Below are positions 31,418 to 53,465 of a DNA stretch of 64,000 nt, piece after piece. Source of the stretch: Flavobacterium sp. WV_118_3. Lineage in GTDB: Bacteria > Bacteroidota > Bacteroidia > Flavobacteriales > Flavobacteriaceae. The notes beneath the pieces are model-generated. The model saw only the letters and a program-made list of their open reading frames with translations. It was not told the origin of the DNA and made no database searches. The DNA is taken from NCBI RefSeq assembly GCF_039778605.1, contig NZ_CP156060.1, positions 1,984,001 through 2,048,000 on the forward strand, read 5' to 3'. The position numbers were made by a program, and so were the translations under genes. The first letter of the stretch is position 1, and every line of letters starts with the position of its first letter.

Positions 31418-33121
31418 CTATTCTTTTATAATTTTTATCACTGCCGTTTTTGATCCGTTATCCGATAACTGTAGTATATAAATACCTTTTGTAAGCTCAC
31501 TAACATCAATCGATCCGGTTTCCGGACGAATGCTACCTCCGGCAACTTTTGTTCCTAGGATGCTGTATAAGGCATAGGTTGTAAAAACTTCCGGCTGGTT
31601 GATATACAATTGGTCTTTGGCCGGGTTTGGGTAGACTTTAATTTTATTCGTATTCCAATCGGTAGTACTCAATGGTTCGTAATAAAGTTTGGCCAGATAC
31701 AAATCGACATTATTTTCCGATTTTGTTACCAATTGGTTCCCAAAAGTCATTGTCGGATTATTAAAAGTACCGCAGATATAGATCTCGTTTTGCGATTTAC
31801 AATCGATATTTAATGTATTATTTGCGTTAAGTGAAGTGGCTTTTCTAGCCCAAACGGCTTCACCACCCGGAGTATATTTTACGACAAAAACGGCACCATC
31901 GGTCGGAACAGGATTCGTTAGTGTCACTCCGTTTCCAAAATTTAACTGGGTATTATTGTAGGTTCCCGCTGTATACAAGCTATTGTTTTCGTCAACATCT
32001 ATGGAATGAATCGTGTTAAATCCGGCTGTGGCAGTGGCCGCTTTAGCCCAAAGTACATTTCCACTCGGATCGTATTTTACAAGAAATTGTTGCGAACCAC
32101 CACTTGCACTCAATATTGCATCTCCAAAACTAACTATATTCGAAAAATAACCGGCCGCATATATATTGTTGTTTAAATCAGTTTTTACGGCCAGCGTACA
32201 GGTGCCGTTATCGTAACTGCTTCCGGCATTACGAGCCCAGATTTCGTTTCCGTTGCTGTCGTATTTCACCAGATACATGTTGAAATTATAATTATAGGTT
32301 GTGGTTTTTGTCAATGTTATTGTTCCAAAGCGAATCGTATTACAGCCAAAATGCCCTCCAACATATACATTACCATTCGTATCTACATCAAGCCCAAAGG
32401 GTATGATTCCCATGTAATGCGCATCATTACTTTGAGACGCTTTCGCCCAAAGGTAGTTCCCCTGACTATCCATTTTGGCAACATACGTTCTATACGATGA
32501 GCCCAAACCCGCACTGTTATAGTCTTCATAATTTAATGTGATCGCTCCCATCTGTATCGAAGGGGTATTAAAAAATCCCGTGAGATAAATATTTTCAGCA
32601 TTATCTGTTTTAATCATACGAATTACCGTTCCTGAAGAATCGTTGGTTACTTTTTTGGCAAAAATAAGGTTTCCGTTCGTGTCGAATTTTGCGATAAAAT
32701 TTCCGGCTACTCCGGATGGGTCGGCAGTTAAGGTAACGGAATCGAAGGTAATCGTATCTAAAAATCCACCGGCTATATAGAAATTGCCCGCTGTATCGGT
32801 TGTAATCGCGGTGGCCTGATCCACTCTCGGACCGCCATAGGCTTTGGCCCATACCACATTCCCCTGATTGTCGTATTTTACAATAGCAATATCCGAATAA
32901 TAATAGGATGGACTATCGTTGTATACGGTTATGTTTCCGAAGGTTATCGATGGTGTTATAAAATCGGTAATCACAATACTGTTTCCATTAGGATCGACTG
33001 CAGTAAATTGTTTTACGCTATTATAATGTATGCCCATACTACGAGCCCAATGCCAGTCGGGAACCTGTGAAAAGGCAATCTGCACACAAAATATGACTAT
33101 TAAAAGGGTAATTTTTCGCAT
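31418..33121 (-). CDS. T9SS-sorted beta-propeller protein, paralogue 3 of 3
   Basis: 567 residues: signal peptide MRKITLLIVIFCVQIAFSQ, then a series of SBBP-like beta-propeller repeats (IAIVKYDNQGNVVWAKAYGG, FIAKFDTNGNLIFAKKV and similar). These have the core KYD-x-GN-x-(V/L)WA(K/R). The last 80 residues form a type A sorting domain: KVYPNPAKDQLYIN and onward, then LTKGIYILQL and a basic end. It is exported by the type IX system to the cell surface. It is the last of three tandem copies separated by about 55 bp. The function of such propellers is not known; adhesion or carbohydrate binding is a guess. Confidence 0.87.
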   Translation of the reverse strand: MRKITLLIVIFCVQIAFSQVPDWHWARSMGIHYNSVKQFTAVDPNGNSIVITDFITPSITFGNITVYNDSPSYYYSDIAIVKYDNQGNVVWAKAYGGPRVDQATAITTDTAGNFYIAGGFLDTITFDSVTLTADPSGVAGNFIAKFDTNGNLIFAKKVTNDSSGTVIRMIKTDNAENIYLTGFFNTPSIQMGAITLNYEDYNSAGLGSSYRTYVAKMDSQGNYLWAKASQSNDAHYMGIIPFGLDVDTNGNVYVGGHFGCNTIRFGTITLTKTTTYNYNFNMYLVKYDSNGNEIWARNAGSSYDNGTCTLAVKTDLNNNIYAAGYFSNIVSFGDAILSASGGSQQFLVKYDPSGNVLWAKAATATAGFNTIHSIDVDENNSLYTAGTYNNTQLNFGNGVTLTNPVPTDGAVFVVKYTPGGEAVWARKATSLNANNTLNIDCKSQNEIYICGTFNNPTMTFGNQLVTKSENNVDLYLAKLYYEPLSTTDWNTNKIKVYPNPAKDQLYINQPEVFTTYALYSILGTKVAGGSIRPETGSIDVSELTKGIYILQLSDNGSKTAVIKIIKE

Positions 33122-33176
33122 CGTTATTTCTAATTATGATTATAACGATCGGACTTCTAAAGTCCGATACGGCTTG

Positions 33177-34862
33177 TTATTCTTTTATGATTTTGATCGT
33201 TTCGGATTTCGATTCGCTATTTGATAATTGCAACAGATAAACACCTTTCGGAAGGGTACTAACATCAATCGATCCGGTTTCCAAACGAATCCCTCCGCTC
33301 GCTACTTTTATACCCAAAACATTGTATAAAGTATAGGTTGTAAAAACCTCGGGATGATCCATATATAATTGATGCTGCACAGGATTCGGATATACTTTAA
33401 TGGTATGTGTATTCCAGCTGGTCGTGGTCAACGGATCGAAAGACAACTTTGCCAGAAACTGATTGTTACTTTCCTCGGATTTTGTTATGGTATGATCGCC
33501 AAAATTCATCACGGAAGTGTTGTAGCATCCGGATAAATACAATTCATTTTCCGATTTACAATGGATATTTACCATATTATACCAGCTTAACGAAAAGGCT
33601 TTTCGCCCCCAAACAGCTTCCCCCTGAGGTGTGTATCTGACTACAGCAACGGCTCCTTGTAGAGCGGATGGATTGGTTAGTAGCACACCATTCCCGAAAT
33701 CCATCTGAGTTGTATTAAAAACCCCTGCAGTATACAGATTATTGTTTTCATCGGTATCCAGATCATATATGGCATTATAACCCGCCGGAGCATTGGCATT
33801 CTTAGCCCAAAGTACATTTCCGCTTGCATCATATTTGACAATAAACTGTTGGGAATCCCCTGAAGAAGTTAAGGTTGTCTGGGCAAAATTAATACTGTTT
33901 GAAAAAGATCCCGCAGCATAAACATTATTCTCTAAGTCGGTTTTTACTGTCCTGCTGTTTGTTGCCGTGTTTTGGTTACTTCCTGCGTTACGCGCCCATA
34001 GCTCATTTCCGTCTGGATCGTATTTTACGAGGTACATATTGAGATTATTATCCCCTACTGCTGTTTTAGTTAGTGTTATGGCGCCAAACCGGAGTGTATT
34101 ACATCCAAATTGCCCGCTATTGTACACATTACCTGCTGTATCAATATCCAAACCATAGGATAAGACCCCAGTAAAATGCCGGTGGTTGCTTTGTGAAATT
34201 TTCAGCCAAAGATAATTCCCCTGACTATCCATTTTAGCAACATAGCCACGGTTGGAACTTTGTGTATCGATAAAGTCTTCGACAGTTGCGCTAATCGTTC
34301 CTAAAGTAATTGTTGGTGTACTAAAACTTCCTGTAAAATATACATTTCCAGCAGTATCCGTTTTAATTTTTGTAGCCCATCCGGGACCTTCTTCCGTTAT
34401 TTTTTTAGCAAAAATGACATCTCCATTGGGATCAAACTTGGCTATAAAAGTACCTACCGTAAAGGTTGTCAGTGTAAAAGAGCCTAATGTAATCGTTTCG
34501 TTAAACCCGCCGGATATATAAAAATTTCCAAAAGCATCCGTTGCAACGGCATTTGAAAAATCGGTCTTTGGACCACCGTATTTTTTGGCCCATAGTACAT
34601 TCCCCTGACTGTCGTATTTCACAATGGCAATGTCGGCATAGTAATACGAAGGGCTGTCATTATAAAGGGTTATGTTTCCAAAGGTTATTTCAGGCATCCT
34701 AAAATCGGTGATCACAATAACATCACCATTACTATCTACTACAGAACAATGCCTCCCGGTATCAAAATACAGATCCATATTGCGAACCCACTGCCAATCG
34801 GGAACCTGTGAAAAGGCAATTTGCACACCAAACAAAGCTATTAAAAGGATCATTTTTTGCAT
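33177..34862 (-). CDS. T9SS-sorted beta-propeller protein, paralogue 2 of 3
   Basis: 561 residues with signal peptide MQKMILLIALFGVQIAFSQ, starting at the ATG at 34862. It has the same plan as its neighbours: repeats with the core KYD-x-GN-x-LWAK, then a sorting domain (KVYPNPVQHQLYMD, LPKGVYLLQLSNSESKS). Similarity to the other two runs through the whole length, including the start and the sorting signal. This shows a tandem duplication. Divergence between copies is spread over the propeller loops, where ligand binding would be expected. Confidence 0.87.
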   Translation of the reverse strand: MQKMILLIALFGVQIAFSQVPDWQWVRNMDLYFDTGRHCSVVDSNGDVIVITDFRMPEITFGNITLYNDSPSYYYADIAIVKYDSQGNVLWAKKYGGPKTDFSNAVATDAFGNFYISGGFNETITLGSFTLTTFTVGTFIAKFDPNGDVIFAKKITEEGPGWATKIKTDTAGNVYFTGSFSTPTITLGTISATVEDFIDTQSSNRGYVAKMDSQGNYLWLKISQSNHRHFTGVLSYGLDIDTAGNVYNSGQFGCNTLRFGAITLTKTAVGDNNLNMYLVKYDPDGNELWARNAGSNQNTATNSRTVKTDLENNVYAAGSFSNSINFAQTTLTSSGDSQQFIVKYDASGNVLWAKNANAPAGYNAIYDLDTDENNNLYTAGVFNTTQMDFGNGVLLTNPSALQGAVAVVRYTPQGEAVWGRKAFSLSWYNMVNIHCKSENELYLSGCYNTSVMNFGDHTITKSEESNNQFLAKLSFDPLTTTSWNTHTIKVYPNPVQHQLYMDHPEVFTTYTLYNVLGIKVASGGIRLETGSIDVSTLPKGVYLLQLSNSESKSETIKIIKE

Positions 34863-34916
34863 TGTAGCTTCTAATTATGATTAAAACGGTCGGATACCGA
34901 TAATCCAATCGGGTTC

Positions 34917-36614
34917 TTATTCCTTTATGATCCTGATTGTCCCGGTTTTTGATTCGCTATTTGATAATTGCAACAGATAAACACCTTTCGAAAGGAAACC
35001 AACATTAATCGGTCCGGTTTCGGGACGGATCATCCCGCTTGTTATTTTAGCTCCGAAAACATTATATACCGAATAGTTGGTGTAAGCTTCCGGTTGGTTG
35101 ATAAACAATTGATCTTTGACAGGGTTTGGATATACTTTAATCGTATGCGCATTCCAGTTGGTGGTGCTTAATGGATCGAAAGACAACTTTGCCAGAAACT
35201 GATCGTAAATCCCATCCAGTTTTTCCACTGCATGATTTCCAAAAGTCATCGCATAAGCATAAGAACCGGACAAATAGATTTCATTTTCCGATTTACAATA
35301 GATATCCACCAGGCAATTTCCATTAAACGGCAATGCTTTTCGTCCCCAAACCGCTTCACCTTCCGGTGTAAATTTTACCAGAAAAAGCGCTCCTTCGAAC
35401 GATGTCGGATTTGTTAGTACGACTTCATTTCCAAAATCGATTTGCGGAATATTTGAAAAGATTCCGGCGGCATACAGATTATTTGCTTCATCAATAGCCA
35501 AACCTTGTATCTGATTGATTCCCGATTCGTTGATCGCTGTTTTCGCCCAAAGTACATTGCCATTTACATCATACTTAACAACAAATAGTTGTCCCGCCTG
35601 ACCAGGAGGTTGCAAGGTTATATTGTCAAAACGTATGTCATTCGCAAAATAACCGGCTGCGTATACGTTATTGTCCAAATCGGCTTTTACCGACCAAAGG
35701 TGAGCACTTTTATTTTCGGAGCTACTTCCTGCATTACGCGCCCATATCTCATTACCGTTAGGATCATATTTAACCAGGTATATATTTTTATCATCCGGTC
35801 CATTGGTCGTTTTATTTAACACGATTGTCCCGAACTGAAGCGTATTACAGGCAAAATATCCACCCGAATACACATTCCCTTCAGCGTCAATATCAAGACT
35901 GTAGGCTACAACTGTTTTCGTTTCAGCATTCGGACTTCTCGGGACTTTCACCCAAATATAATTCCCTTCACTATCCATTTTTGCCACATAAGGTCGTTGA
36001 GCCCAAGGCGCATTCGCTGTCCAACCTTCGTTATTAAAACTAATTGTTCCAAATGTGGCTGTCGCTGTATTAAAAGAACCGGTCAGATAAACATTCCCGG
36101 AAGTATCGGTTTTTATAGCCGCATAAAACGCAAAAGCATCTTCCTGTATAATTTTCCGGGCAAAAATAGTGTTCCCGGTAGCGTCCAGCTTTGTTATAAA
36201 TACGTTTTTCCCTGTAGCATTTAATGTAAAAGAACCAAACGTAATAGCATCCTCAAATTGCCCTATCAGATAAATATTTCCATTATTATCTGTCGTCACT
36301 GCAGATGGAATATCCGCTTTGGGTCCGCCATAATTTTTAGCCCATAACACATTTCCCTGATTATCGTATTTTATAATTGCAATCTCGCTATAATAATGAG
36401 AAGGATTATCACTCGTCAGTGTTATATCTCCAAATGATATGGAAGATCCTACAAAATCGATAACAACAATAACATCACCATTATTATCAACAGTCACGCA
36501 GCGTGCCCAATTATTAAGATTTCCGTCCATACTCCTGACCCATTCCCAATCGGGTGTTTGAGCGCCGGTCATTTGAAAGAAAAATAATGCAATTAGTAGT
36601 GTAATTTTTGGCAT
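34917..36614 (-). CDS. T9SS-sorted beta-propeller protein, paralogue 1 of 3 (first in the cluster)
   Basis: 565 residues with signal peptide MPKITLLIALFFFQMTGAQ. The repeats (AIIKYDNQGNVLWAKNYGG, VFITKLDATGNTIFARK, YLVKYDPNGNEIWARNAGS) and the C-terminal sorting domain (KVYPNPVKDQLFIN, LSKGVYLLQLSNSESK) match the two genes after it. Spacing of 54 bp suggests that the three are cotranscribed, with any promoter in the 118-bp AT-rich gap before 36733, although no perfect consensus is seen there. Confidence 0.87.
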   Translation of the reverse strand: MPKITLLIALFFFQMTGAQTPDWEWVRSMDGNLNNWARCVTVDNNGDVIVVIDFVGSSISFGDITLTSDNPSHYYSEIAIIKYDNQGNVLWAKNYGGPKADIPSAVTTDNNGNIYLIGQFEDAITFGSFTLNATGKNVFITKLDATGNTIFARKIIQEDAFAFYAAIKTDTSGNVYLTGSFNTATATFGTISFNNEGWTANAPWAQRPYVAKMDSEGNYIWVKVPRSPNAETKTVVAYSLDIDAEGNVYSGGYFACNTLQFGTIVLNKTTNGPDDKNIYLVKYDPNGNEIWARNAGSSSENKSAHLWSVKADLDNNVYAAGYFANDIRFDNITLQPPGQAGQLFVVKYDVNGNVLWAKTAINESGINQIQGLAIDEANNLYAAGIFSNIPQIDFGNEVVLTNPTSFEGALFLVKFTPEGEAVWGRKALPFNGNCLVDIYCKSENEIYLSGSYAYAMTFGNHAVEKLDGIYDQFLAKLSFDPLSTTNWNAHTIKVYPNPVKDQLFINQPEAYTNYSVYNVFGAKITSGMIRPETGPINVGFLSKGVYLLQLSNSESKTGTIRIIKE

Positions 36615-41855: not shown

Positions 41856-41883
41856 GATAAAGCCTCCTTTTGGAGGCTTTATC
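41856..41883 (-). terminator. Terminator of the vioB-like/ebo/VOC operon
   Basis: GATAAAGCCTCC and GGAGGCTTTATC form a perfect 12-bp stem with a four-base loop; the minus strand then reads TTTTT. It lies 12 bp past the VOC stop. No other such structure was found between 41896 and 51828, so the operon most likely ends here. Confidence 0.88.
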
Positions 41884-41895
41884 AATCGCTTTTAA

Positions 41896-42318
41896 TTAAT
41901 TCATATTCTGACGAATGGCCAGGGTATTATTATCCGGATCGGAAAAAAATGCGAAATGATCAATATACCCTTTGTCAGATGTGTTTTCAACAATTTCGCT
42001 TACTTCTATACCTTCCGCGATTAAATGTTCTCTTGTTTTTACAATATCACTCACCATAAAAGTGGGCGCGGTTCCGGTTTCTTCGGGCTCTAACGGTTTG
42101 TCAATATCTTTAAACAAGCCGATAGCTATGGTGTCCATAGCATCGTGTAACAGTTGTACATAGGAGTCCTTTTCAAAAGTCCCGCCATTGTTGATCGTGT
42201 AATCCGACTGTACTTTAAATCCTAACTTTTCGGTATAGAATTTTTCGGAAACCGGCATATTGCTCACAGATAGTTTGATCACCATTTGTTGTTGTTGCTT
42301 TATTGCTTTAAAAATCAT
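41896..42318 (-). CDS. VOC-family (glyoxalase-like) protein, last gene of the ebo operon
   Basis: About 140 residues from the ATG at 42318; the frame upstream overlaps eboF and is rejected. It has the paired beta-alpha-beta-beta-beta modules of the VOC superfamily: KLSVSNMPVSEKFYTEKLGFKVQ at the start, then APTFMVSDIVKTREHLIAEGIEVS and IDHFAFFSDPDNNTLAIRQN at the end, with metal-ligand type Glu/His positions. VOC proteins include glyoxalases, dioxygenases and fosfomycin-type resistance proteins. It starts 11 bp after eboF and is followed by a strong terminator, so it is cotranscribed. A role in the ebo-linked pathway is possible but not shown. Confidence 0.83.
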   Translation of the reverse strand: MIFKAIKQQQQMVIKLSVSNMPVSEKFYTEKLGFKVQSDYTINNGGTFEKDSYVQLLHDAMDTIAIGLFKDIDKPLEPEETGTAPTFMVSDIVKTREHLIAEGIEVSEIVENTSDKGYIDHFAFFSDPDNNTLAIRQNMN

Positions 42319-42329
42319 GGTATTCGTTT

Positions 42330-43754
42330 TTAATCGGTTAGTTCTTTTTCTGTAATCCGGTCGGTTTGTTGTATTTTCCGGGCATCTTCCCCAAAGATCG
42401 CATTCAGTACAAGCGGACAAACGTCTATAGCGCTTATCTTTTCCTTAATGGCGGATGTACTGATAAAAACCGGTTTGTCCACATCATCTGTGTCAATTCG
42501 TCCATGCGAACCTTTTACCAATCCGGAATCCAGAGAAATCAAGTCCATTACGGTTCGGAATCCAAGTTTTTTGCGAAGTAATTTTATCACTATTCGCGGA
42601 AAGAGCATTTTCTTTTTCCGATCAAAAAACATTTCCGCCGGATCGTAACCCGGTTTTTTATGAATGTCGACCGTTCGGGCAAAATCCGGCGCGCGACGAT
42701 CGTCTTCCCAGTAATAATAGGTAAACCAACTGTCTTTATCGGCGATACAAACCAGCTCTCCAGCTCTTTCATGGTTGATATGGTATTCTTTTTTACCTTT
42801 TTCATCCAATACCCGTTCTATTCCCGGAATGGTTTCCAATAAGGCTTTTACTGCGGCAATCTGCGAAGGATTTTTGATATAAACATGGGCAATCTGATGA
42901 TCGGCCAAAGCAAATGCCGATGATTGTCCGGCGTCCAACAGTTCGAGTCCTCTTTCTTCCCGGATTGCAATATGTCCGTTATCGCGTAGTGTCCTATTGA
43001 TCGCAATCGGATTACTGACATTGGTAATCCCATATTCCGATACAATAATCGGGTTCACTCCCTTAGCTTCAAAAAACAAGATCAGGTCTTCACAAATGGC
43101 ATCAATTTCTTTTAGATCTTTGGTGATTTCTGGCGCTCCTTGTTTGAATTTCTGACAACAATAATCCAAATGCGGAAGATAAATCAACATTAGCGTCGGA
43201 TCATGCCATTCGTGTACCAATTTGGAAGCATCGGCGATCCATTTACTGGACTTTACAGATGTTTTCGGTCCCCAGAAATCAAAAAGCGGAAAAGTGCCCA
43301 AGGTTTGTTGTAACCGATCGCGAAGGCCTGCCGGCTGACTGTAGCAATCCGGTTTTTTCTGTCCGTCTGCCCAATATTGCGGCCGTGGCGTCACCGAAAA
43401 ATCGGCATCGGAATACATATTGTACCACCAAAACATATTGGCGCAGGTAAATTCCGGATCGATCGCTTTGGCCATATCCCAGATTTTGGGTGCCTGAACC
43501 AGTTTATTGGATTGCCGCCATAATTTGACTTCGGCTTCCTCCCGAAAATACCATCCGTTCCCTACTATACCGTGTTCCGAAGGCCATTTCCCGGTTAAAT
43601 AGGTTGCTTGTACCGAACAGGTTAACGCCGGAAAAACGGGTTCTATAAGGCTTTTAGCTGCTTTTTTCTTTATCCATCGGCTTAGGAAAAGTGTTTCGTT
43701 ATCGAGTAAACCGGACGTAAGCCCTACTATGTTTATGACTGCTGTTTGCTGCAT
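42330..43754 (-). CDS. eboF: EboF: alkaline-phosphatase-superfamily nucleotide pyrophosphatase/phosphodiesterase
   Basis: 474 residues. The nucleophile Thr lies in PVFPALTCSVQATYLTG, the type I phosphodiesterase site. Metal ligands are likely in YLPHLDYCCQ, VSEYGIT and GSHGRIDTDD. There is no signal peptide, which fits the ebo-type enzyme. The start overlaps eboE by 56 bp, and MQQTAVINIVGLT is the natural N-terminus. In ebo clusters this gene comes last and is thought to process a phosphate-linked precursor. Its place after eboA-E supports the assignment. Confidence 0.87.
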   Translation of the reverse strand: MQQTAVINIVGLTSGLLDNETLFLSRWIKKKAAKSLIEPVFPALTCSVQATYLTGKWPSEHGIVGNGWYFREEAEVKLWRQSNKLVQAPKIWDMAKAIDPEFTCANMFWWYNMYSDADFSVTPRPQYWADGQKKPDCYSQPAGLRDRLQQTLGTFPLFDFWGPKTSVKSSKWIADASKLVHEWHDPTLMLIYLPHLDYCCQKFKQGAPEITKDLKEIDAICEDLILFFEAKGVNPIIVSEYGITNVSNPIAINRTLRDNGHIAIREERGLELLDAGQSSAFALADHQIAHVYIKNPSQIAAVKALLETIPGIERVLDEKGKKEYHINHERAGELVCIADKDSWFTYYYWEDDRRAPDFARTVDIHKKPGYDPAEMFFDRKKKMLFPRIVIKLLRKKLGFRTVMDLISLDSGLVKGSHGRIDTDDVDKPVFISTSAIKEKISAIDVCPLVLNAIFGEDARKIQQTDRITEKELTD

Positions 43755-44994
43755 TTTTTACTGCTTTTGTTACGGTTGAATGTTCTTTTTCCAGCTGCAT
43801 TTGCACCCATGATAATTCCCGGTGTATCGCGTCGGTCAAATGCATTTGCAGTTGCGATGGCAATACGTCCCAGGTATAGGTTTCGACTTCCAGATGGGTC
43901 GAATATGGTTTTTTCGACCAAAGTTGCAACGCCTTGATAATGTCCTCCTGCGTTGACAGTAAGCCTTGATAATCCGACAGGAATATTGGTACATGAAAAT
44001 GGGTACGAAGTTCTTCGGAATCGCATTCCATCATGTTTGTGATACCTTGCTTTAGATCGGGAAACTTTAGCAAAGCCCCGGATTTTGTTCTAATTACCGC
44101 CTGATGCAAATAAATCGGTTCGTCAAATTGTTGTAAGCGTCCGGAAAGCGCTTCCTTGTCTGATGCAGAGGCTATAGTGCATTTTAAAGCAGCACTGATT
44201 TGTATCTTTCCGATTTTTATCCTGTTAAGTTCCATGATGCGGATTACGTCTTCCGGTTTTTCGAAAGCAACCGCAAAATGACAAACATCATAGCACAATT
44301 GGATGTGTTCGCGAATATAATTGCGCGCTTCTGCTCCGCTACATTTTATTTTTTTGACCAGTTCGTTCGCGCCTTCTTTTAAGAGGTAGTTTTGGAAAAA
44401 ATCAATAACATCATCGGTATTTTCAAGTAATCCGTCGGGTTCCGGTTCGATATCGAGGTGCATTTTCTTTCCGGTTGTTTGTTTTAAACCGATCAGATGT
44501 GTTACGATATCGATCATATGAAGACAACTTTTCCTTTTAGCATCTTCCCTTTCCGCTTCATTAGCAAACCAATATTTATACGAAAGTGGCGAAGTGGATA
44601 TGCCTCCGTCAATTTCTTTGGGTACTAATTGTGCCAATAGATCGAATAATAAACGCGTATAATCCACCCGTTCCTGACTTAACCAGTCGGGCGAATGTAC
44701 GCGGTCTTTTACTTCCTCGTTGTGGAAATTGCCATACGGAAAACCGTTAATTGTAAATACGTAAACATCGTTTTCCGTTAGCCAGTGCTGGAATACGGTC
44801 AGATTTTCTTCCTGTTGTAATGCCAACGCGCTTTCATTGGATAATCGCAATCCGATTCCAAAAGGTTTCCCTTCGGCCATTTTCGACTTTACATCGCGTG
44901 TGTAGCGTTTTAAATTTGTAAACACTTCCTCCCAGGTTTCCCCGGAATGAATGTTCGTACAATAACTTAAATGGGCGTTGTTCCTGATTTTCAT
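43699..44994 (-). CDS. eboE: EboE: sugar-isomerase/TIM-barrel-like metabolite traffic protein
   Basis: 431 residues, soluble. The opening NNAHLSYCTNIHSGETWEEVF is characteristic of EboE. A TIM-barrel-like pattern follows, with GIGLRLSNESALAL, INGFPYGNFHNEEVKDRVHSPDW and LDIEPEPDGLLENTDD. In the last, Glu and Asp may bind a metal as in xylose-isomerase-like enzymes. The final part has DYQGLLSTQEDI and HLEVETYTWDVLP. It lies 1 bp after eboD and overlaps eboF. The reaction is not known; the family is required for scytonemin-precursor traffic in a cyanobacterium. Confidence 0.88.
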   Translation of the reverse strand: MKIRNNAHLSYCTNIHSGETWEEVFTNLKRYTRDVKSKMAEGKPFGIGLRLSNESALALQQEENLTVFQHWLTENDVYVFTINGFPYGNFHNEEVKDRVHSPDWLSQERVDYTRLLFDLLAQLVPKEIDGGISTSPLSYKYWFANEAEREDAKRKSCLHMIDIVTHLIGLKQTTGKKMHLDIEPEPDGLLENTDDVIDFFQNYLLKEGANELVKKIKCSGAEARNYIREHIQLCYDVCHFAVAFEKPEDVIRIMELNRIKIGKIQISAALKCTIASASDKEALSGRLQQFDEPIYLHQAVIRTKSGALLKFPDLKQGITNMMECDSEELRTHFHVPIFLSDYQGLLSTQEDIIKALQLWSKKPYSTHLEVETYTWDVLPSQLQMHLTDAIHRELSWVQMQLEKEHSTVTKAVKNAANSSHKHSRAYVRFTR

Positions 44995-44995
44995 T

Positions 44996-46156
44996 TTATT
45001 CCTGAATTAGAACATTCGATTTTATCAGATATTGAACTGCCTGCGAAAGGATCGTTTTTTCGATATGGTGTACTTCCTCACCAGTTCCGATACCTTTTAA
45101 CAACATGACAGTGAGTTCTCCTCCCAGATGTTCTCTGAATTCTTCAAGTCCTTTATACAATAGCGGATTGACTTCCGATTGGGTTTTATCCGATAATAAA
45201 GTGTGAAAAATTTCAAAGCCTAAATCGGTTAAACAGGTCAGAATGCGCTGTAACGCTTCTTCATCCAATCGTCCGGTTTTGTATGAATATACCGAATCCA
45301 GTGCTATTCCAATAGCAACGGCTTCTCCGTGAAGCACTTCGTATCCGGACAAATATTCGAGTTTATGCGCAGCCCAGTGTCCGAAATCCAATGGTCGTGA
45401 CGAGCCTTTTTCAAACGGATCACCTGCAGTTCCTATATGTTCGATATGCAATTGGGCACAACGGAAAATCAATTGTTCCATAACCGCCATATTCCGTTCG
45501 TTTAGTGCTTCGGTATTTTGGGCGATCCAGTTAAAAAAAGCAGCATCTTTGATCAACGCTACTTTTATCGCTTCTGAAATTCCCGAACGCCAGTTTCTGT
45601 CGTCAAGGGTTTCCAAAAAACAGGAATCGTTGATAACGGCATATGGTGGCGAAAAGGTTCCCAGAAAGTTCTTTTTTCCAAAGTAATTAATACTGGTTTT
45701 TACGCCTACTCCCGAATCGTTTTGCGACAATACCGTTGTCGGAACGCGAATCAAACGAATCCCGCGGTGAGCAATAGCGGCGGCATATCCTGCGGCATCG
45801 AGTACGGCGCCTCCTCCAATGGCGATTAAATAGGAATGTCTGTCGATGCGGTTGTTGTGAATGAGTTGTAATATTTCTTCAATAGTATGATCATCATTTT
45901 TAATGTTTTCGCCGCCTCTTACAATCAAGATACTGCTGTCAACTGTATGTAATTCAAAATAATCGGATATATCGTTAATGATGTTGGGATGATAAACCGC
46001 GATATCTCGTTCGATCACCACCACTATTTTGGAATTTTCGGTTTTAATGATGTTTATAAGTTCTTTATTGTCGGTTTTAAAGACATTACGGGTAAAAACA
46101 ACATCGTAATGATAGTCTACCTGAAAATGCTGACGGATATTTTGGGCTTTATACAT
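44996..46156 (-). CDS. eboD: EboD: 3-dehydroquinate-synthase-like enzyme
   Basis: 386 residues. The NAD site reads YLIAIGGGAVLDAAGYAAAIAHRG, followed by RVPTTVLSQNDSGVGVK. The metal ligands of dehydroquinate synthases are likely the Glu in SGISEAIKVALI and the His residues in GHWAAHKLE and VLHGEAVAIGIALDS. The N-terminal part differs from AroB. It acts on a related phosphorylated sugar acid in a side pathway. The gene lies between eboC and eboE in the usual order, 23 bp after eboC. Confidence 0.88.
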   Translation of the reverse strand: MYKAQNIRQHFQVDYHYDVVFTRNVFKTDNKELINIIKTENSKIVVVIERDIAVYHPNIINDISDYFELHTVDSSILIVRGGENIKNDDHTIEEILQLIHNNRIDRHSYLIAIGGGAVLDAAGYAAAIAHRGIRLIRVPTTVLSQNDSGVGVKTSINYFGKKNFLGTFSPPYAVINDSCFLETLDDRNWRSGISEAIKVALIKDAAFFNWIAQNTEALNERNMAVMEQLIFRCAQLHIEHIGTAGDPFEKGSSRPLDFGHWAAHKLEYLSGYEVLHGEAVAIGIALDSVYSYKTGRLDEEALQRILTCLTDLGFEIFHTLLSDKTQSEVNPLLYKGLEEFREHLGGELTVMLLKGIGTGEEVHHIEKTILSQAVQYLIKSNVLIQE

Positions 46157-46179: not shown

Positions 46180-47070
46180 TCAGGTTACTGCAAATTTTCG
46201 AGCCAGTAAAACGGATAATGGCAATAAGATTAAAACCGGAAGGGCATAATTCCAGTTTGCAAATCCGGCGATATAACAGGCATTGAGTAGTATTAGCGAC
46301 AACACGCCTGTTTTTACGGCTTTTTTGATCCAATCGGGTTGGTTGTTTTTATAGGCTTTGTACTTGGCTAAAAAGTTAACACCATACCAAAGTACCAGAA
46401 ACGGTGCGGCAATTTTTAAATTAAGGTTGCCGTATTGACTAATCCCGATAAATAGAATTACGACTACCGCATCCAAAAGCATGGCTAGCAAAATGGATGT
46501 TTTGTTGTTGCCGCTTACTTCTTTTTGTCCGGTTAACGTTATCGCGGCAATAAACAATACCGGGATGATCACCATATACCCGTCACGGAATATGTTTTCG
46601 GGGATGATACTCATGCCGAGTAATAAATTACCGCCACGACAAAGTCCCATATTTAAGGGTCCCAGAAACGAATGGTGTTTCCCGATTTTATCGTAGGTTA
46701 AAGCCAATACCATAATAATCAGAGCCAAAATGCCACTGATTTTGGACACCATAAAAGCGGATACAATCCCCATAACGAAAAGTACAATTCCGAGTACCGA
46801 TGCTTCTGTAACAGAGACTTTTCCACTGGGTAAAATTCTTTCCGGACGATTGACACGGTCTTCTTTAAGGTCGAAAACGTCGTTAAAAACAATTCCTCCG
46901 GCATAAAGACCAATGGTAGCAAGCAATAACCATCCGACACTACTCCACGACGTTGTGTCCCAATCGGTTGCGATAAGAAAACCGGAAATCGCTACGCCGC
47001 CCAAAATGTCGGATAAAGCCGTCATGATATTGGCCGGTCGCATTAACGTCAGATAATAATATAATTTCAT
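46180..47070 (-). CDS. eboC: EboC: UbiA-like prenyltransferase
   Basis: 296 residues with about eight to nine membrane segments. The first Asp-rich prenyl-diphosphate site is NDVFDLKEDRVNRPERILPSG, and the second region is LTYDKIGKHHSFLGPLNMGLCRG. Together they mark the UbiA superfamily. In the ebo cluster EboC is proposed to attach a prenyl group to a precursor so that it can reach the periplasm. It lies 8 bp after eboB, and its translation is probably coupled. Confidence 0.9.
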   Translation of the reverse strand: MKLYYYLTLMRPANIMTALSDILGGVAISGFLIATDWDTTSWSSVGWLLLATIGLYAGGIVFNDVFDLKEDRVNRPERILPSGKVSVTEASVLGIVLFVMGIVSAFMVSKISGILALIIMVLALTYDKIGKHHSFLGPLNMGLCRGGNLLLGMSIIPENIFRDGYMVIIPVLFIAAITLTGQKEVSGNNKTSILLAMLLDAVVVILFIGISQYGNLNLKIAAPFLVLWYGVNFLAKYKAYKNNQPDWIKKAVKTGVLSLILLNACYIAGFANWNYALPVLILLPLSVLLARKFAVT

Positions 47071-47078
47071 TGTATCGG

Positions 47079-47984
47079 TTAATTATCAACAATATTCGAA
47101 AACGATACGACTTTGGCTTCTTGTCCTCTCAGGATTCCGCTACCGTCATACAAAGCCGACTGCTCTACGATCATTTCTTTTTTCCAGTCGTCTTCTTTCA
47201 TCTGTCCACTTTGCGAATAGGCGGTTAAGGCATTTTTATAACAAGTCAGGTGTACGTCTTCTTTAGCAATACCTCTTTCCAGCATTAAAGCGGCTGTTTT
47301 GGGTACGGATAACGGATCACTTACACCCCAATCGGCTGAACTGTCGACAATAATTCTTTCGGAGCCGTATTTTTTGACAATTTCAACCATTCGTTCGTTC
47401 CCCATTTTGGTATTCGGATAAATGGTAAATGCGGTCCAATAGCCTCTGTCCAATACGTGTTTTACGGTTTCTTCGTTGTTGTGATCAATCACAACCATAT
47501 GAGGCGGAATACCGTGTTCTTCGAGTACGTCCATACTTCTGATGGTTCCGTTGATTTTATCGCGGTGTGGCGTATGTACCATAACCGGAAGATTAAACTG
47601 CAACGCCAGTTCTATTTGTAATCTGAAATATTTGTCTTCCGCAGCTGTTTGATCATCATAACCAATTTCGCCAATGGCCACGACGCCTTCTTTTCCGGCA
47701 AATAAGGGTAATAATTCCATTACCTGTTCTGCCAGTGCTTCGTTATTCGCTTCTTTGGAGTTAAGTCCCATCGTACAATAATGCTTGATTCCAAATTGGG
47801 AAGCACGGAAACGTTCCCAACCGATTAGCGTACTGAAATAATCTTTAAAGGATCCGGCTTCGGTTCGGGGTTGTCCCAACCAAAAAGCAGGTTCAATTAC
47901 GGCTACAATTCCGGCGGCGCGCATGGCTTGGTAATCATCAGTTGTTCTGGATACCATGTGAATATGTGGGTCTATAAAATACAT
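47079..47984 (-). CDS. eboB: EboB: TatD-family metal-dependent hydrolase
   Basis: 301 residues. Metal-binding HIHMVSR at residues 7-13 and GEIGYDDQT in the middle are TatD-type amidohydrolase features, with VMVHTPHRD and MVVIDHNNEE supplying further ligands. Late in the chain is IVDSSADWGVSD. The fold is a TIM barrel acting on an unknown substrate. It follows eboA by 31 bp and precedes eboC by 8 bp. Confidence 0.88.
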   Translation of the reverse strand: MYFIDPHIHMVSRTTDDYQAMRAAGIVAVIEPAFWLGQPRTEAGSFKDYFSTLIGWERFRASQFGIKHYCTMGLNSKEANNEALAEQVMELLPLFAGKEGVVAIGEIGYDDQTAAEDKYFRLQIELALQFNLPVMVHTPHRDKINGTIRSMDVLEEHGIPPHMVVIDHNNEETVKHVLDRGYWTAFTIYPNTKMGNERMVEIVKKYGSERIIVDSSADWGVSDPLSVPKTAALMLERGIAKEDVHLTCYKNALTAYSQSGQMKEDDWKKEMIVEQSALYDGSGILRGQEAKVVSFSNIVDN

Positions 47985-48015: not shown

Positions 48016-48843
48016 TTATGTGTTTTTGATCAGCGCCTCATAATCGGCTCCTATTTCGTTCCAACCTCTGCCGTTGGACTCCAAAACTTTGGCGGCCACT
48101 TCTTGTTCGAGCGGCGTGCCGGTTTGCATGACTTTATACAGATCGGTTTCGATTACTTCATCGACAAAACCTTCAATTCCTCTCCATATTTCCGGGGTTA
48201 CGGCTCTTCCCGCCGACCAGCGTTCGTGGATGTATCCGTGGAGCATAAAAGCCAGTTTTTCGTTGGCCCGCAAATCCAAACCATAAATACGGAATAAGGG
48301 TCGTGCGGTAAAAACGGCTTTTAAAACCAACTGGTTCCAGGCGTCTTCGGGTAAATACAAATAAGCATACGGGTTGTGCAGCGCTATGGCTTCGAAAACA
48401 TCGGTCATATTGGTGCGCACACCTTCCTGCATCCGCAAGGTGAAATCTTCTGCATTATCCAGAAAATACAAGCCTTTGTAAAGGGTTATCAGCTCTTTTA
48501 TATCGGCAGTTTCAAAGATCAGTTTCAGTAGGTTTTCATTTCTTTCCAACGGTAGGTTAACCATTAAAAATACCCGGCTCAATTGTTGGTTGTTCCATTC
48601 TGAAGCCGCAAATCCGGGATACAATTTTTCCAGTCGGCTTAGGGTTTCCGGTTTGTATTCCGGTAAATCCAGCGTGATATGACGCGGAATCAAACTAAAT
48701 AAGGAAATGAACTGGTTTCCCAGTTCATCTCTATTTTTAGAACCTATGTTGGCGTCGAACCAGCTGCGTTGGACTTCCGGTAAGCTGTCCTGCAACAATT
48801 CCAGTAGTACCTGGTGTGCTGTAATTTCTGCCGTTTTATACAT
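48016..48843 (-). CDS. eboA: EboA family protein
   Basis: 275 residues, soluble, mainly helical, without a recognised catalytic motif. The place before eboB and the closing part (MLHGYIHERWSAGRAVTPEIWRG and onward) fit the EboA family, which is found only in ebo clusters. It lies 17 bp after the ferritin-like gene, so the VioB-like pair and the ebo genes form one transcription unit. The molecular role is unknown. Confidence 0.8.
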   Translation of the reverse strand: MYKTAEITAHQVLLELLQDSLPEVQRSWFDANIGSKNRDELGNQFISLFSLIPRHITLDLPEYKPETLSRLEKLYPGFAASEWNNQQLSRVFLMVNLPLERNENLLKLIFETADIKELITLYKGLYFLDNAEDFTLRMQEGVRTNMTDVFEAIALHNPYAYLYLPEDAWNQLVLKAVFTARPLFRIYGLDLRANEKLAFMLHGYIHERWSAGRAVTPEIWRGIEGFVDEVIETDLYKVMQTGTPLEQEVAAKVLESNGRGWNEIGADYEALIKNT

Positions 48844-48860: not shown

Positions 48861-49982
48861 TTAAACATTTACTTTGTTTTCCATGTACTGATCTTTTTCA
48901 CTTGGCGTTAGATTATCGTTTGTGATATATTCATAGCTAGGTCCGGCGGTATATCCCGGTTGGTTCGGACTAGGCAGCTTTAATAGTCGTAAAGCGTATA
49001 ATCGCAACGAATACATCAACCCCATTGCCGTGTCGATTTTTTCCGGTGCTCCGTTAAATGTGATATGCAAACTGTTTAACAGGTTGGTATAGGTGTAATT
49101 AAAAAACTTGCTGTTTACATAAGCTGGAGAATCTACAGGGTAATCGCTCATTTTAGGGTTTTTGGCCATATTCGGGATTTTTGATTCGTCACACGGAATA
49201 GGATCTCCGGAGTACGAATACCCACTTTCGGCATTCGGATCTTTAACCAGTTTTCGACCTTTATAGATTTCCTCAAAACGATAGTAATGTGCCGGTTCTG
49301 TTGCTTCACCCGGCCCTAAATCTTTTTCACTTATAAAAGGATCGGTACTGGTTCCTTCTCCCTGATCCACTATAATATTGATCCCTTTTAATGCAGTAAT
49401 CAAATCCTTGATCGGGAATAATTCTTTGGCCGGAAACCATTTTTCATTGGTCATCTGATACGTCGAATCGCCTGTAAAAATGGTTTTACCTTTTAATTTT
49501 GCTTCTGCTTCCAAAAAGGTAAGCTGTTTGGCAATTTTATCGTAAAACATTCCGATGGTCAGTTTGTCTTCTGCTCCTTTCATCATCATAAAACTTTTTA
49601 TTTTGATCGGATCTTCCGGTTCTTCAATCGCCATAAAAACGTCTTTCATCAGGTCTTTTGTAAATTTTGCGATCGGTACAATCAAACCGGAATCCACGCC
49701 GCCCGGAAGTGGCCCCGGATACGTTGGGATAAAACCCGGTTGGTTTAGTACCGGTTTTCCTCCAATAGCGTTCATTAAATTACATGCGATGGATAAATGC
49801 AGCATTTCTTCTACTACAACGGATCCGATTAATTTTGAAATTTCATTATTCCCGGTTTCAAACAGGGTAAACATAGCAGTCAGATAAGGTGGAATCGTCG
49901 AGTGTTCCAGCTCAATTGCCGTTTGAAGTGCCTTTCTGATATCTTCAATCGTTTCTATTTGTATATTTTTAAGATAAATCAT
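48861..49982 (-). CDS. VioB C-terminal-half-like protein with ferritin-like domain
   Basis: About 373 residues from the ATG at 49982. The frame continues upstream to 50069 as a low-complexity, Gln/Lys-rich stretch that overlaps the previous gene and is not used. A ferritin-like domain (PF12902 type) lies at the N-terminus: Glu24/Glu26 in ELEHSTIPPYL, Glu58-Glu59 and His62 in EEMLH, and NLMNAIGGKPVL. Later, IVDQGEGTSTDPF and HYYRFEEIYKG match the VioB pattern recalled from violacein synthesis, where the enzyme couples two imine molecules. Here it begins as a separate chain exactly where the VioB interdomain linker would be. Confidence 0.8.
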   Translation of the reverse strand: MIYLKNIQIETIEDIRKALQTAIELEHSTIPPYLTAMFTLFETGNNEISKLIGSVVVEEMLHLSIACNLMNAIGGKPVLNQPGFIPTYPGPLPGGVDSGLIVPIAKFTKDLMKDVFMAIEEPEDPIKIKSFMMMKGAEDKLTIGMFYDKIAKQLTFLEAEAKLKGKTIFTGDSTYQMTNEKWFPAKELFPIKDLITALKGINIIVDQGEGTSTDPFISEKDLGPGEATEPAHYYRFEEIYKGRKLVKDPNAESGYSYSGDPIPCDESKIPNMAKNPKMSDYPVDSPAYVNSKFFNYTYTNLLNSLHITFNGAPEKIDTAMGLMYSLRLYALRLLKLPSPNQPGYTAGPSYEYITNDNLTPSEKDQYMENKVNV

Positions 49983-50019
49983 GAGTAGTTGGTTTTGTTT
50001 TGTTGTTTGCTTGTTTGTT

Positions 50020-51828
50020 TTAGGTGCTTTGGATGATACGTTCTGCTGTTGATAAATCGGCCAATGCATTTTCTTTTATGGCACGGTCCAAATAATTCAG
50101 TATCATCTGTTTTTTGTCTCTCGAAAGGTCACGGGTAACCGGCATATGGTTCGGATCTTCTCTTGGCAGATCGAAAACAAAGCGCAGTAGTTTGGCGTTA
50201 TTATCGACCACTTCTCTATTGGCAAGATTAAAAATGCCTTTGGACATTAGCGGGTACAAATTGGCATATTGCTGCATTACCGGTTGCACGTCTTTGTCCC
50301 AATCTGGTTTTGCAATGACTTCCGGCTTAACGGAATCGAAAACCAGAATACTGATAAAGTTCGTCGGATCGATCCCCGATAATGCGGCTGGTAATACAAC
50401 CGGATTTCCATCTTTTATTGTAAAAGTGAAATCGACCGTTGGATATCCTTCCAGGTAATACCATAGTGCATAAACCTGACCATCGATAAATCCTCTTGGA
50501 TTTTGCGGATTGGATGCTTTTACTGTTAGTGTCGCTTTTCCATTAGTATCGGTTACTACACCGGGCTCGAAAGCCAGAATATTTGGTGTGGAAGTGGCCG
50601 GCGTTCCGTCTCCTTGTCCCATAATATTGATCAAACTATCTTGAAACTGACAAACAATAGCCTGATTTACCATCGGTTTCCCTAAATAGGTTGCGTAGAA
50701 ATCGATGTTACTTTCTTCTCCCGAATTCATCCGGAATACAAACTGGTCGGCTCTTACATAATGGGTAAGTTCTTTAACTAAAGGCGATAAGCTTCCGTCC
50801 GATTGCTGGTTCATGATGGCCAATGGGCAATTTCTCACCATATCCACCTGCTCGTCAGTTAGCCTGATCTTAACCAAACCACCTCTGTTTTCATACCATT
50901 TTGGTAGTTTAAAGTTGAGTTCTCCCAGCGGAACATACGCTTCACCTCCAATATTTGCAGCTAGAACCAATGTGCGTGATTCTGCAATGGCTCCTTCCGG
51001 ACCTGCAGTTTGCAGAAAATTTCCAAGATCCAGAATAAATTCTTTGGTTTCTTCCTGTAGTAGTCCATTGGCCACATATACGGAGGTGCTCAATGGCATA
51101 TACATTCCACTGTTACAGGTAAGATCGGAAACGAATTGTCTACCCATTATAAAGTGTTTCGGTTCGTCCATACGCGATGGTCCGATACTTCCCACTATTC
51201 GGCCAATTGTAAAATGGGCGGAATCGTGTTGCTGGTTAAAAATATCCACATTGAATTTCATCGATAAGCGCTCCGGGCTTTCTTTTCGTAGTTCCTCCAG
51301 ATAACGGGATTTACTTTCTACTTCCGACCATTGCAGGTCTGTAACTACCGACTGATAGCTAGCCGATGCGCCACCGGATCCTTTTTGAGTCGTTGAACGA
51401 TTCCACCAGATGTCGTTAAAGGCAATTGGTTCAAAATTTCCTTTTACAAAATCGGTTTCGCCTTGTCCAATCCGAACAATCATTCCCCAAATTTGGGAAA
51501 CCGATTGTTGTTGCGGGTCCAGATCCACAATTTTTCCAGCTACCCGGCTGTTGGCATCCATAATACTCATCCCGATAATCGGGTCCTTAGCAGGATCACT
51601 GGTTGTAGTGCCGTCCATATAGGTCACACTGGTTATGACGCAGTCTATCAAACGCCAGTTCCCGGTTCCGTCCGGATTCCACCAACCATTCGTTCCTCCT
51701 TCCCCGTATTCCTGATAGCTGGGTTGGAAGGTCGCATTGTTGTAATGATTCACATCATTGTTTACCGTGGAAGGATCTGCCTGAAACTTCCCTGAAAAGG
51801 TTAGTCTTGGTGAATTTAAATAAGCCAT
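50020..51828 (-). CDS. VioB N-terminal-half-like protein, first gene of the ebo operon
   Basis: 602 residues, soluble, beta-rich. Its start, LNSPRLTFSGKFQADPSTVN, resembles the LDFPRIHFRG... start of VioB, and its end (ANLYPLMSKGIFNLANR, then MPVTRDLSRDKKQMILNYL) resembles the last part of the VioB N-terminal half (YPFMSDKVFSLADR, MPSTRELSAPKARLFLKYL, both from memory). It has no ferritin-like domain; the next gene supplies that. The two reading frames differ by one phase and overlap if the second is extended, so a 1-nt error between 50020 and 50069 could also explain the split. It is the first gene after a 410-bp divergent gap. Confidence 0.72.
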   Translation of the reverse strand: MAYLNSPRLTFSGKFQADPSTVNNDVNHYNNATFQPSYQEYGEGGTNGWWNPDGTGNWRLIDCVITSVTYMDGTTTSDPAKDPIIGMSIMDANSRVAGKIVDLDPQQQSVSQIWGMIVRIGQGETDFVKGNFEPIAFNDIWWNRSTTQKGSGGASASYQSVVTDLQWSEVESKSRYLEELRKESPERLSMKFNVDIFNQQHDSAHFTIGRIVGSIGPSRMDEPKHFIMGRQFVSDLTCNSGMYMPLSTSVYVANGLLQEETKEFILDLGNFLQTAGPEGAIAESRTLVLAANIGGEAYVPLGELNFKLPKWYENRGGLVKIRLTDEQVDMVRNCPLAIMNQQSDGSLSPLVKELTHYVRADQFVFRMNSGEESNIDFYATYLGKPMVNQAIVCQFQDSLINIMGQGDGTPATSTPNILAFEPGVVTDTNGKATLTVKASNPQNPRGFIDGQVYALWYYLEGYPTVDFTFTIKDGNPVVLPAALSGIDPTNFISILVFDSVKPEVIAKPDWDKDVQPVMQQYANLYPLMSKGIFNLANREVVDNNAKLLRFVFDLPREDPNHMPVTRDLSRDKKQMILNYLDRAIKENALADLSTAERIIQST

Positions 51829-52238: not shown

Positions 52239-53465
52239 ATGGTAAAAAAATTACTTTTCTTTTCCGGATGCCTTTTTTGGGCACTTCTTTCCGGTTGTAA
52301 TGATCACGACGACAATCCGGTTGGTACTTCGCATGATTCGATGTTTTTTATCGATTATCGGGATCTGAACGGTGGTTCGGATGGCATGGCGGTGATCGAA
52401 CTCGATCCTGAATCGCCTAATTTTGGAAATATTAGCAGTCGATTGGAATTGGGTGTTGGCGTACTTCCGCATCATATTTATTACGACTATTTTGCCCAAA
52501 GGCTCTATACGACGGCTTTAGGTGGTAGTTATCTGTATCAGATCCGTACGGTGGAAGATGCCAATGGCTTACCGACATTGGTGAGCGCTACTCCGATAAA
52601 TACCGGGACAAGTACGGTTGGTGAAGATATTTTCTTTACAAGTGATAATCGGTATTTTGTGACATTTATGGGTGGCGACGGTAGTCTGAAGGGCGGAAGT
52701 GTGGGTGTTTTTAACGCGACTAATAATCAATTGATCAAAACAATATCGGGTTCTATTGATGCAAATCCGAATACGTTTATCATGTATCCGCACGGTATTT
52801 CGATCAGTGCCGAAAAAGGATTGATGATGGTAACCTCAACGATTCATCCGGATCTGACTTCCGGTGTGGGCAATACCTGTACCCTAATCGATTTGAACAC
52901 CTATGAAATGATCGAAACTTATACGGTTGCCGATAGTCCTTCGGATATGTCGAGTCCGGTGGAGGTTTTATTACTGCGCGGTCAGTTTCCGAAATTTGCG
53001 CTGGCGACGACGATGTTGGGCGGCGATATCTGGATGGCTCCTTATAATGCGACTACCGGTAAATACGATGCTTTTACCAAGGCATTCGACGGTTCGACTA
53101 TGGGATTGGGATGGGCTTTGGAAATGTATATGGACAATAACAAACATCTTTATGTTAGTTTTGGAGAACCCGGAAAAGTGTTGGTTTTCGATATCAGCGA
53201 ATTGCCGACTTTAAAGCTTTTGCGAACACTGGATGCCGATGAGGGGGCGCATCATATGGTTTTCTTTAAAACAAAATCCGGAAGAGAGGTGGTTGCGGTT
53301 CAGAACAATCTGCTAAATCTACCCAACTTAAATTCCGGGACGATTACCGTAGTCGATGTGAAGACCGGCGAAAAACTGGGCAAAGTCGATTTGCGAAATC
53401 GTTACGGCATATTACCGGAATCGATCGAAGGTACCGGCGGACCGAGCAATTATTTGCATCATTAA
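52239..53465 (+). CDS. Beta-propeller lipoprotein (YncE / selenium-binding-protein-like)
   Basis: 408 residues with a lipoprotein signal (lipobox LLSGC near residue 20) and then Asp/His-rich residues. The mature part is a series of propeller blades: FFIDYRDLNGGSDGMAVIELD, TTALGGSYLYQI, FNATNNQLIKTI, TLIDLNTYEMI, VLVFDISELPTL and ITVVDVKTGEKLG. His pairs in LPHHIYYD and GAHHMVF and a PHG in MYPHGISIS recall the histidines of selenium-binding/methanethiol-oxidase propellers, but this is not certain. It is divergent from the VioB-like operon and may share its regulation. A terminator follows. Confidence 0.7.
   Translation: MVKKLLFFSGCLFWALLSGCNDHDDNPVGTSHDSMFFIDYRDLNGGSDGMAVIELDPESPNFGNISSRLELGVGVLPHHIYYDYFAQRLYTTALGGSYLYQIRTVEDANGLPTLVSATPINTGTSTVGEDIFFTSDNRYFVTFMGGDGSLKGGSVGVFNATNNQLIKTISGSIDANPNTFIMYPHGISISAEKGLMMVTSTIHPDLTSGVGNTCTLIDLNTYEMIETYTVADSPSDMSSPVEVLLLRGQFPKFALATTMLGGDIWMAPYNATTGKYDAFTKAFDGSTMGLGWALEMYMDNNKHLYVSFGEPGKVLVFDISELPTLKLLRTLDADEGAHHMVFFKTKSGREVVAVQNNLLNLPNLNSGTITVVDVKTGEKLGKVDLRNRYGILPESIEGTGGPSNYLHH

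Follow-up and report, generated by a model that had tools for sequence, protein, structure and literature searches.

VioB joins two tryptophan-derived units in violacein, and RebD and StaD are relatives of VioB. The chromopyrrolic acid synthases RebD and StaD have been reported as heme-containing imine-coupling enzymes (PMC10851217), and VioB itself is described in a 2021 review as a catalase-active heme b enzyme that lacked a structure at the time (PMC9705886). The ebo operon, found in eustigmatophytes and bacteria, is a widespread and poorly understood gene set, whose biochemical role has been open since its description in 2016. The EDB cluster of Pseudomonas fluorescens NZI7 contains ebo (PMC6282210), and this cluster gave indole products in E. 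coli (PMC9655573, citing Zhou 2022). In Nostoc, each of five ebo deletions trapped the scytonemin monomer in the cytoplasm (PMC6282210), and EboC homologues were reported to farnesylate quinolines in crude membrane assays (PMC9235831). Here we describe two adjacent genes of Flavobacterium sp. WV_118_3 that correspond to the two halves of VioB and directly precede a complete ebo operon. They lie in a 64,000-nucleotide stretch (contig NZ_CP156060.1, positions 1,984,001 to 2,048,000; hereafter the window). The gene pair is a real and widespread two-subunit variant of the VioB kind that occurs recurrently in ebo operons. No report of a VioB-like pair together with ebo was found in the literature searched, outside which most subscription papers lie; "VioB" and "ferritin" do not occur in the main texts of PMC5133447 and PMC6092422, nor do "ferritin" and "violacein" in PMC6282210.

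Two genes collinear with the halves of VioB

The first-pass annotation of the window had taken the first gene for the N-terminal half of VioB and the next gene for the ferritin-like half, with the split at the interdomain linker, and all three proposals held. The first protein, of 602 amino acids (aa), is a multi-domain beta protein with MAYLNSPRLTFSGKF at its start, YANLYPLMSKGIFNLANR and HMPVTRDLSRDKK within, and the motif MPVTRDLS in its helical C-terminal part. In the comparison with the VioB family that the annotation had proposed, this protein matched the VioB model TIGR04492 with 29.7 bits (E 1.4e-7; residues 509-584 against model positions 507-583). At the permissive threshold of E ≤ 10, the same model was matched by 33 of 36 diverse members of the N-half family (best E 9.7e-12). 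The second protein carries ELEHSTIPPYL, EEMLH, and IVDQGEG, the three motifs named in the annotation, and matched PF12902 with 233 bits against a gathering cut-off of 22.3. PF12902 is also present in VioB itself, at residues 612-833.

Sequence profiles of the N-half and of the ferritin-half, each made from 120 sequences including the window's own, were compared with three real VioB proteins, obtained by a TIGR04492 search of six genomes (three of six above the cut-off). The N-half profile (2-573) aligned with VioB 1-585 (hhalign probability 97.7, E 1.9e-12), and a profile of naturally fused relatives (2-895) aligned with VioB 1-935 (probability 99.6, E 7e-25). The break between the two genes therefore falls at VioB residues ~585-600. 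Against single VioB proteins, the N-half profile 496-571 matched ~517-593 of VioB L084 with 40 bits, and the ferritin-half profile 8-214 matched ~600-819 of VioB L085 in two pieces totalling 27.8 bits (6.9, 15.9). Both profiles matched the VioBs in order, with E-values of 2e-12 to 2e-5 for a library of 18950. As judged from these alignments, the collinear likeness to VioB is far beyond chance. By the curated model neither protein is VioB, since the equivalog cut-off for the full model is 1250 bits (real VioBs L084-L086 scored 1701-1856 bits) and the match here covers the N-half only; at the level of superfamily and architecture, the profiles identify them as VioB's two halves, with the same order of two regions, the PF12902 domain, and a full-length profile match. 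Signatures common to VioB and the pair are LxxPRxxFxG...TxNxx..H at the start, YMPxTR(D/E)LS, EEM(L/I)H, and QGEG. Unlike VioB, the window has two proteins, no VioA was found in the genome, and ebo genes and a VOC (glyoxalase-fold) gene are the neighbours. The likeness of the pair to RebD and StaD is drawn from published descriptions.

Seven residues of the second protein (E26, E59, H62, E120, Y147, E209, H232) were found in all 90 family sequences aligned, the window's being counted three times, and their equivalents are present in all three VioBs. A structure model of a fused relative puts the positions corresponding to E26, E59, H62, Y147, and H232 in helices, and E120 and E209 correspond to loop residues. 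In sequence, these residues resemble a ferritin-type carboxylate/histidine set, and the subunit probably has a two-metal site formed by Glu26, Glu59/His62, Glu209, and His232; Glu120 and Tyr147 are invariant too. This predicts conserved ligands of the ferritin type in VioB, an enzyme described as a heme b protein (PMC9705886). The second subunit also resembles 3hl1, the ferritin-like protein CC_0557 of Caulobacter, in sequence (E 1.7e-9) and fold; 3hl1 is a solved structure of a single-domain protein, and its entry title names no function. The model of the N-half (mean pLDDT 83.1, pTM 0.86) is mostly beta, and one Ig-like sub-domain of it matches solved structures. No signal peptide was apparent by eye, which points to a cytoplasmic site. 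As two smaller proteins, the split form may be useful for crystallisation and hence for VioB itself.

The pair is not confined to the window. Among 7996 candidates scored, 1505 N-half relatives were found at E ≤ 0.001, the best 120 of which had 503-657 aa. Scanning one genome per species gave 216 confirmed loci, and the best 80 were analysed. A scripted rule placed 57 of these as two adjacent genes and 15 as one fused open reading frame (ORF). The other eight were unclassed: four had a ferritin ORF called from an upstream start, one had the reversed order (L067), and three had no ferritin match on the contig examined. The intergenic gap was -4 to 50 nt in 50 of the 60 two-gene rows of the 57 loci, and tandem double pairs occur in L059, L063, L069, and L071. 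Record titles place the pair in Bacteroidota, Proteobacteria, Cyanobacteria, Acidobacteria, and Myxococcota. The class that includes Chromobacterium gave matches in 4 of 303 genomes, and in two of these (G559 and the centre genome) the match spans most of the N-half profile. A quick 85-row tree placed the fused forms in one clade that required one change, with a support of 78 (under the starred level). The two-gene form is thus conserved beyond the window, as the annotation had asked; its picture of a split VioB needs revision, because there is no sign of a recent split and two genes are the usual form of a large family. On the tree the window grouped with L004 (Flavobacterium supellecticarium, N-half 99% identical to the window's) and Pedobacter, away from the remaining Flavobacterium rows, which suggests horizontal transfer. 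The base composition of the operon region is not distinct from its surroundings.

Two other sets of ferritin-like proteins were seen. L028, L034, L055, and L057 all have a second, divergent ferritin-like protein (464-523 aa) together with a recurrent family of ~325 aa. PF12902 proteins of 404-566 aa in other Bacteroidota (L103-L112) apparently belong to other subfamilies, and no N-subunit match was found in the stretch examined around them.

Linkage to ebo operons and VOC genes

The pair was first viewed without its setting, and the ebo operon and the VOC gene were overlooked. Nine genes stand in a row on the minus strand from 51828 to 41896, namely the VioB-N-like gene, the PF12902 gene, eboABCDEF, and the VOC gene, and their strand and spacing suggest a single operon. 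The six ebo genes are adjacent on one strand in the complete ABCDEF order, the type described for Bacteroidetes (PMC5133447), and the same order was found in L004-L008. Unlike described ebo operons, the window's set is preceded by the VioB-like pair and followed by the VOC gene. EboC and EboE scored above their equivalog cut-offs and the EboA domain above its own; EboB, EboD, and EboF were assigned by Pfam class and position.

Ebo genes were sought in the 80 loci by phmmer with the window's Ebo proteins. They were found in 32 loci, 31 of which contained at least three ebo genes (L037, ended by a contig edge, shows eboF alone). The ebo-linked pairs spread over three phyla (Bacteroidota, Proteobacteria, and Cyanobacteria) and several gene orders; with N and F for the two genes of the pair, these include N-F-ABCDEF in Bacteroidota, N-F-DECABF in Chromobacterium, and DCABEF-N-F in Photobacterium. 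Further ebo-linked taxa are Undibacterium, Massilia, Pseudoduganella, Solimicrobium, Nitrospirillum, a Lysobacterales metagenome-assembled genome (MAG), and cyanobacteria. A lone cluster was therefore rejected as a description of the pair, and the recurrence of the partnership across phyla suggests a possible role for ebo in handling what this chemistry produces. Having a partner enzyme with recognisable chemistry makes the function of ebo testable.

In Bacteroidota, EboE was found in 24 of 27 pair-bearing genomes (12 in the locus, 12 elsewhere) compared with 31 of 395 sampled genomes, a comparison uncorrected for kinship and genome size. A profile search of the 31 ebo-bearing genomes recovered the full-length N-half in two (our genome and G166) and remote partial matches in two more, so ebo does not need the pair. 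The pair of Bacteroidota thus goes with ebo, and ebo does not depend on the pair. Two proteins of 712-723 aa with remote VioB-N-type matches were also seen in ebo-bearing genomes (L114:7032-9203 and L115:5418-7556), with no ferritin-profile match within the 14 kb examined around them.

VOC genes were found in 29 of the 80 loci. In 24 loci the VOC gene follows the ferritin-like gene directly (19 loci), is fused to it (L015), is fused to EboF (L006 and L007), or follows eboF (L004 and L005), and in the remaining five it lies elsewhere in the locus. The VOC assignment was confirmed by Pfam in all four proteins tested (those of the window, L006, and L032, and the ferritin-VOC protein P0188). The swapped fusion partners of VOC suggest that the ferritin subunit, VOC, and EboF work in one pathway.

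Proposed function and alternatives

We propose, with about an even chance of being right, that the pair is a two-subunit VioB-type coupling enzyme and that the ebo system finishes or exports its aromatic product. The two genes would encode a large beta-rich N-subunit and a ferritin-like subunit of one oxidative enzyme, and the two may act as one complex since naturally fused relatives exist. Its cytoplasmic substrate would be an aromatic imine or enamine, which the complex would couple or oxidise; the product would pass to EboA-F for modification or export, and the VOC protein might perform a further step. A VioB-like working of the pair is plausible, as are dimer formation and an iron or heme dependence of the predicted enzyme.

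Several results weigh against this proposal. By the curated model, the two halves are very remote from VioB (29.7 against 1250 bits), the second protein gave no match to TIGR04492 at E 0.01, and the separate ferritin-half stretches score just 3.8-15.9 bits each against VioB. The heme b of VioB does not follow from a ferritin-type site. Among the loci without linked ebo, 46 of 48 were covered, in 45 genomes (L053 and L060 left out); EboE lay elsewhere in 23 of these genomes and was not found in 22, some of them MAGs and maybe incomplete, which makes it probable that the pair can function without ebo. Finally, the VioA-type flavin tryptophan oxidase of the violacein system was not found in the cluster, in line with the annotation's remark that no amino-acid oxidase is adjacent. 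The whole genome gave no full-length VioA match (best 19.7 bits over residues 5-65 in a comparison with real VioA), which leaves the imine source unproven.

Candidates for that source were sought more widely. The genome has four PF01593 matches, none inside the window, and searching the loci's ORFs for VioA gave one weak match (L081, 40 bits in three pieces). A GoxA/LodA-like quinoprotein oxidase and a GoxB/LodB-like maturase are encoded at C1:1.70 Mb of the same genome, unlinked and ~330 kb away; both proteins are below the curated cut-offs for GoxA, LodA, GoxB, and LodB proper. In this quinoprotein amino-acid oxidase operon (G000 C1:1699857-1703857, equal to L125:5858-9858), the gene ahead of the GoxA/LodA-like gene is catalase-like by eye, with no Pfam match at 0.001. 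A phmmer search with these oxidase and maturase proteins matched the ORFs of 2 of the 80 loci. One of them, L041, belongs to a Verrucomicrobiales MAG, where a LodB-like gene (L041:3-992) and the fused gene share 4 nt. In the other, from a Symploca MAG, a short LodA-like ORF and a LodB-like ORF broken into two pieces separate eboD from eboE (L067:1963-4171). In Bacteroidota, 10 of 27 pair genomes had an oxidase above the cut-off compared with 2 of 53 controls (p 0.0002), the controls being every seventh genome, G004 to G368, of the Bacteroidota sample. Among genomes of at least 4 Mb the numbers were 8 of 24 and 2 of 16 (p 0.26). The co-occurrence is not robust, and a LodA/GoxA-type oxidase as the imine source is a lead, not proof. 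In the fungus Gymnopus luxurians, too, PF12902 genes have been described as neighbours of lodA/lodB-like genes (PMC4417212).

A more general version of the proposal, which we regard as unlikely, would make ebo a unit of general use for finishing and exporting aromatic metabolites that have been oxidatively coupled. The pair would then be one of its core enzymes, an imine-coupling complex working with two metals and not only with heme; a quinoprotein amino-acid oxidase (LodA/GoxA-type) would supply it in place of the flavin enzyme VioA, and VOC would be the third catalyst. If true, this would define an unreported branch of VioB/RebD/StaD chemistry, and it would explain the presence of ebo with the dimer scytonemin in cyanobacteria and with indole products in Pseudomonas.

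The pair could instead be a tailoring oxidase of the ebo pathway, acting on an EboC/EboD-derived (prenylated or cyclitol) intermediate without amino-acid imine coupling. The near-constant company of ebo in Bacteroidota, the lack of a full-length VioA match in the genome, and the VOC-EboF fusions agree with this explanation. However, we hold it to be fairly improbable, because only 2 of 31 ebo-bearing Bacteroidota have the full-length N-subunit, because EboE was not found in the 22 genomes mentioned above, and because the homology of the N-subunit to VioB extends over its entire length. It is distinctly improbable that the ferritin-like subunit is an iron or peroxide handler and the N-subunit its beta-sandwich binding partner, with a VioB likeness of fold and ancestry and no bond-forming chemistry, given that both regions are conserved collinearly, that fused forms exist, and that the operon context is biosynthetic. 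A single vioB-like gene broken by recent mutation or by a base error, which the annotation had raised for 50020-50069, has the 15 fused loci in its favour and can be virtually dismissed, since L004, which is 99% identical, shows the split too (36 nt between the genes, compared with 37 in the window), 57 of 80 loci have two adjacent genes, and the window is not among the fused forms that need one change on the tree; a pseudogene was rejected on the same grounds.

Coordinates and other genes of the window

Table 1 Features of the nine-gene row, in window positions
Feature	Position	Strand	Basis
VioB N-region homologue, 602 aa, first gene of the operon	51828-50020	minus	ORF list, TIGR04492, profile matches
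PF12902 ferritin-like subunit, 373 aa, homologue of VioB C-region	49982-48861	minus	Pfam; start set by relatives
eboA	48016..48843	minus	EboA domain NF035938, 151 bits (cut-off 50); subfamily NF035937, 192 bits, below cut-off 320
eboB, TatD-type metallo-hydrolase	47079..47984	minus	PF01026; position
eboC, UbiA-like	46180..47070	minus	NF035940, 360 bits (cut-off 250)
eboD, sugar phosphate cyclase / AroB-like	44996..46156	minus	family match; position
eboE, TIM barrel	43699..44994	minus	NF035939, 483 bits (cut-off 250)
eboF, type I phosphodiesterase family	42330..43754	minus	PF01663, 202 bits; position
VOC (glyoxalase-fold) protein, last gene	41896..42318	minus	ATG 42318 just after eboF likelier than listed ORF start 42420
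Terminator-like 12-bp stem with T tail, probable operon end	41856..41883	minus	stem search

The longest ORF of the ferritin-like gene runs from 50069 to 48861 on the minus strand. Its relatives mostly have 344-408 aa, and some have 420-510 aa (120 listed). Because these relatives point to an internal ATG at 49982, a start at 50069 appears less likely; with the internal start, the two genes are 37 nt apart. Terminator-like sites in the region numbered 14 compared with 12.3 expected, and the stem at 41883-41856 is among the longest.

Upstream of the operon and divergently transcribed is a gene (52239-53465) with weak matches to SBP56 / methanethiol oxidase. Elsewhere in the window, at 31418-36614, three tandem genes encode proteins of 561-567 aa that are alike, look secreted, and have similar C-terminal ends.
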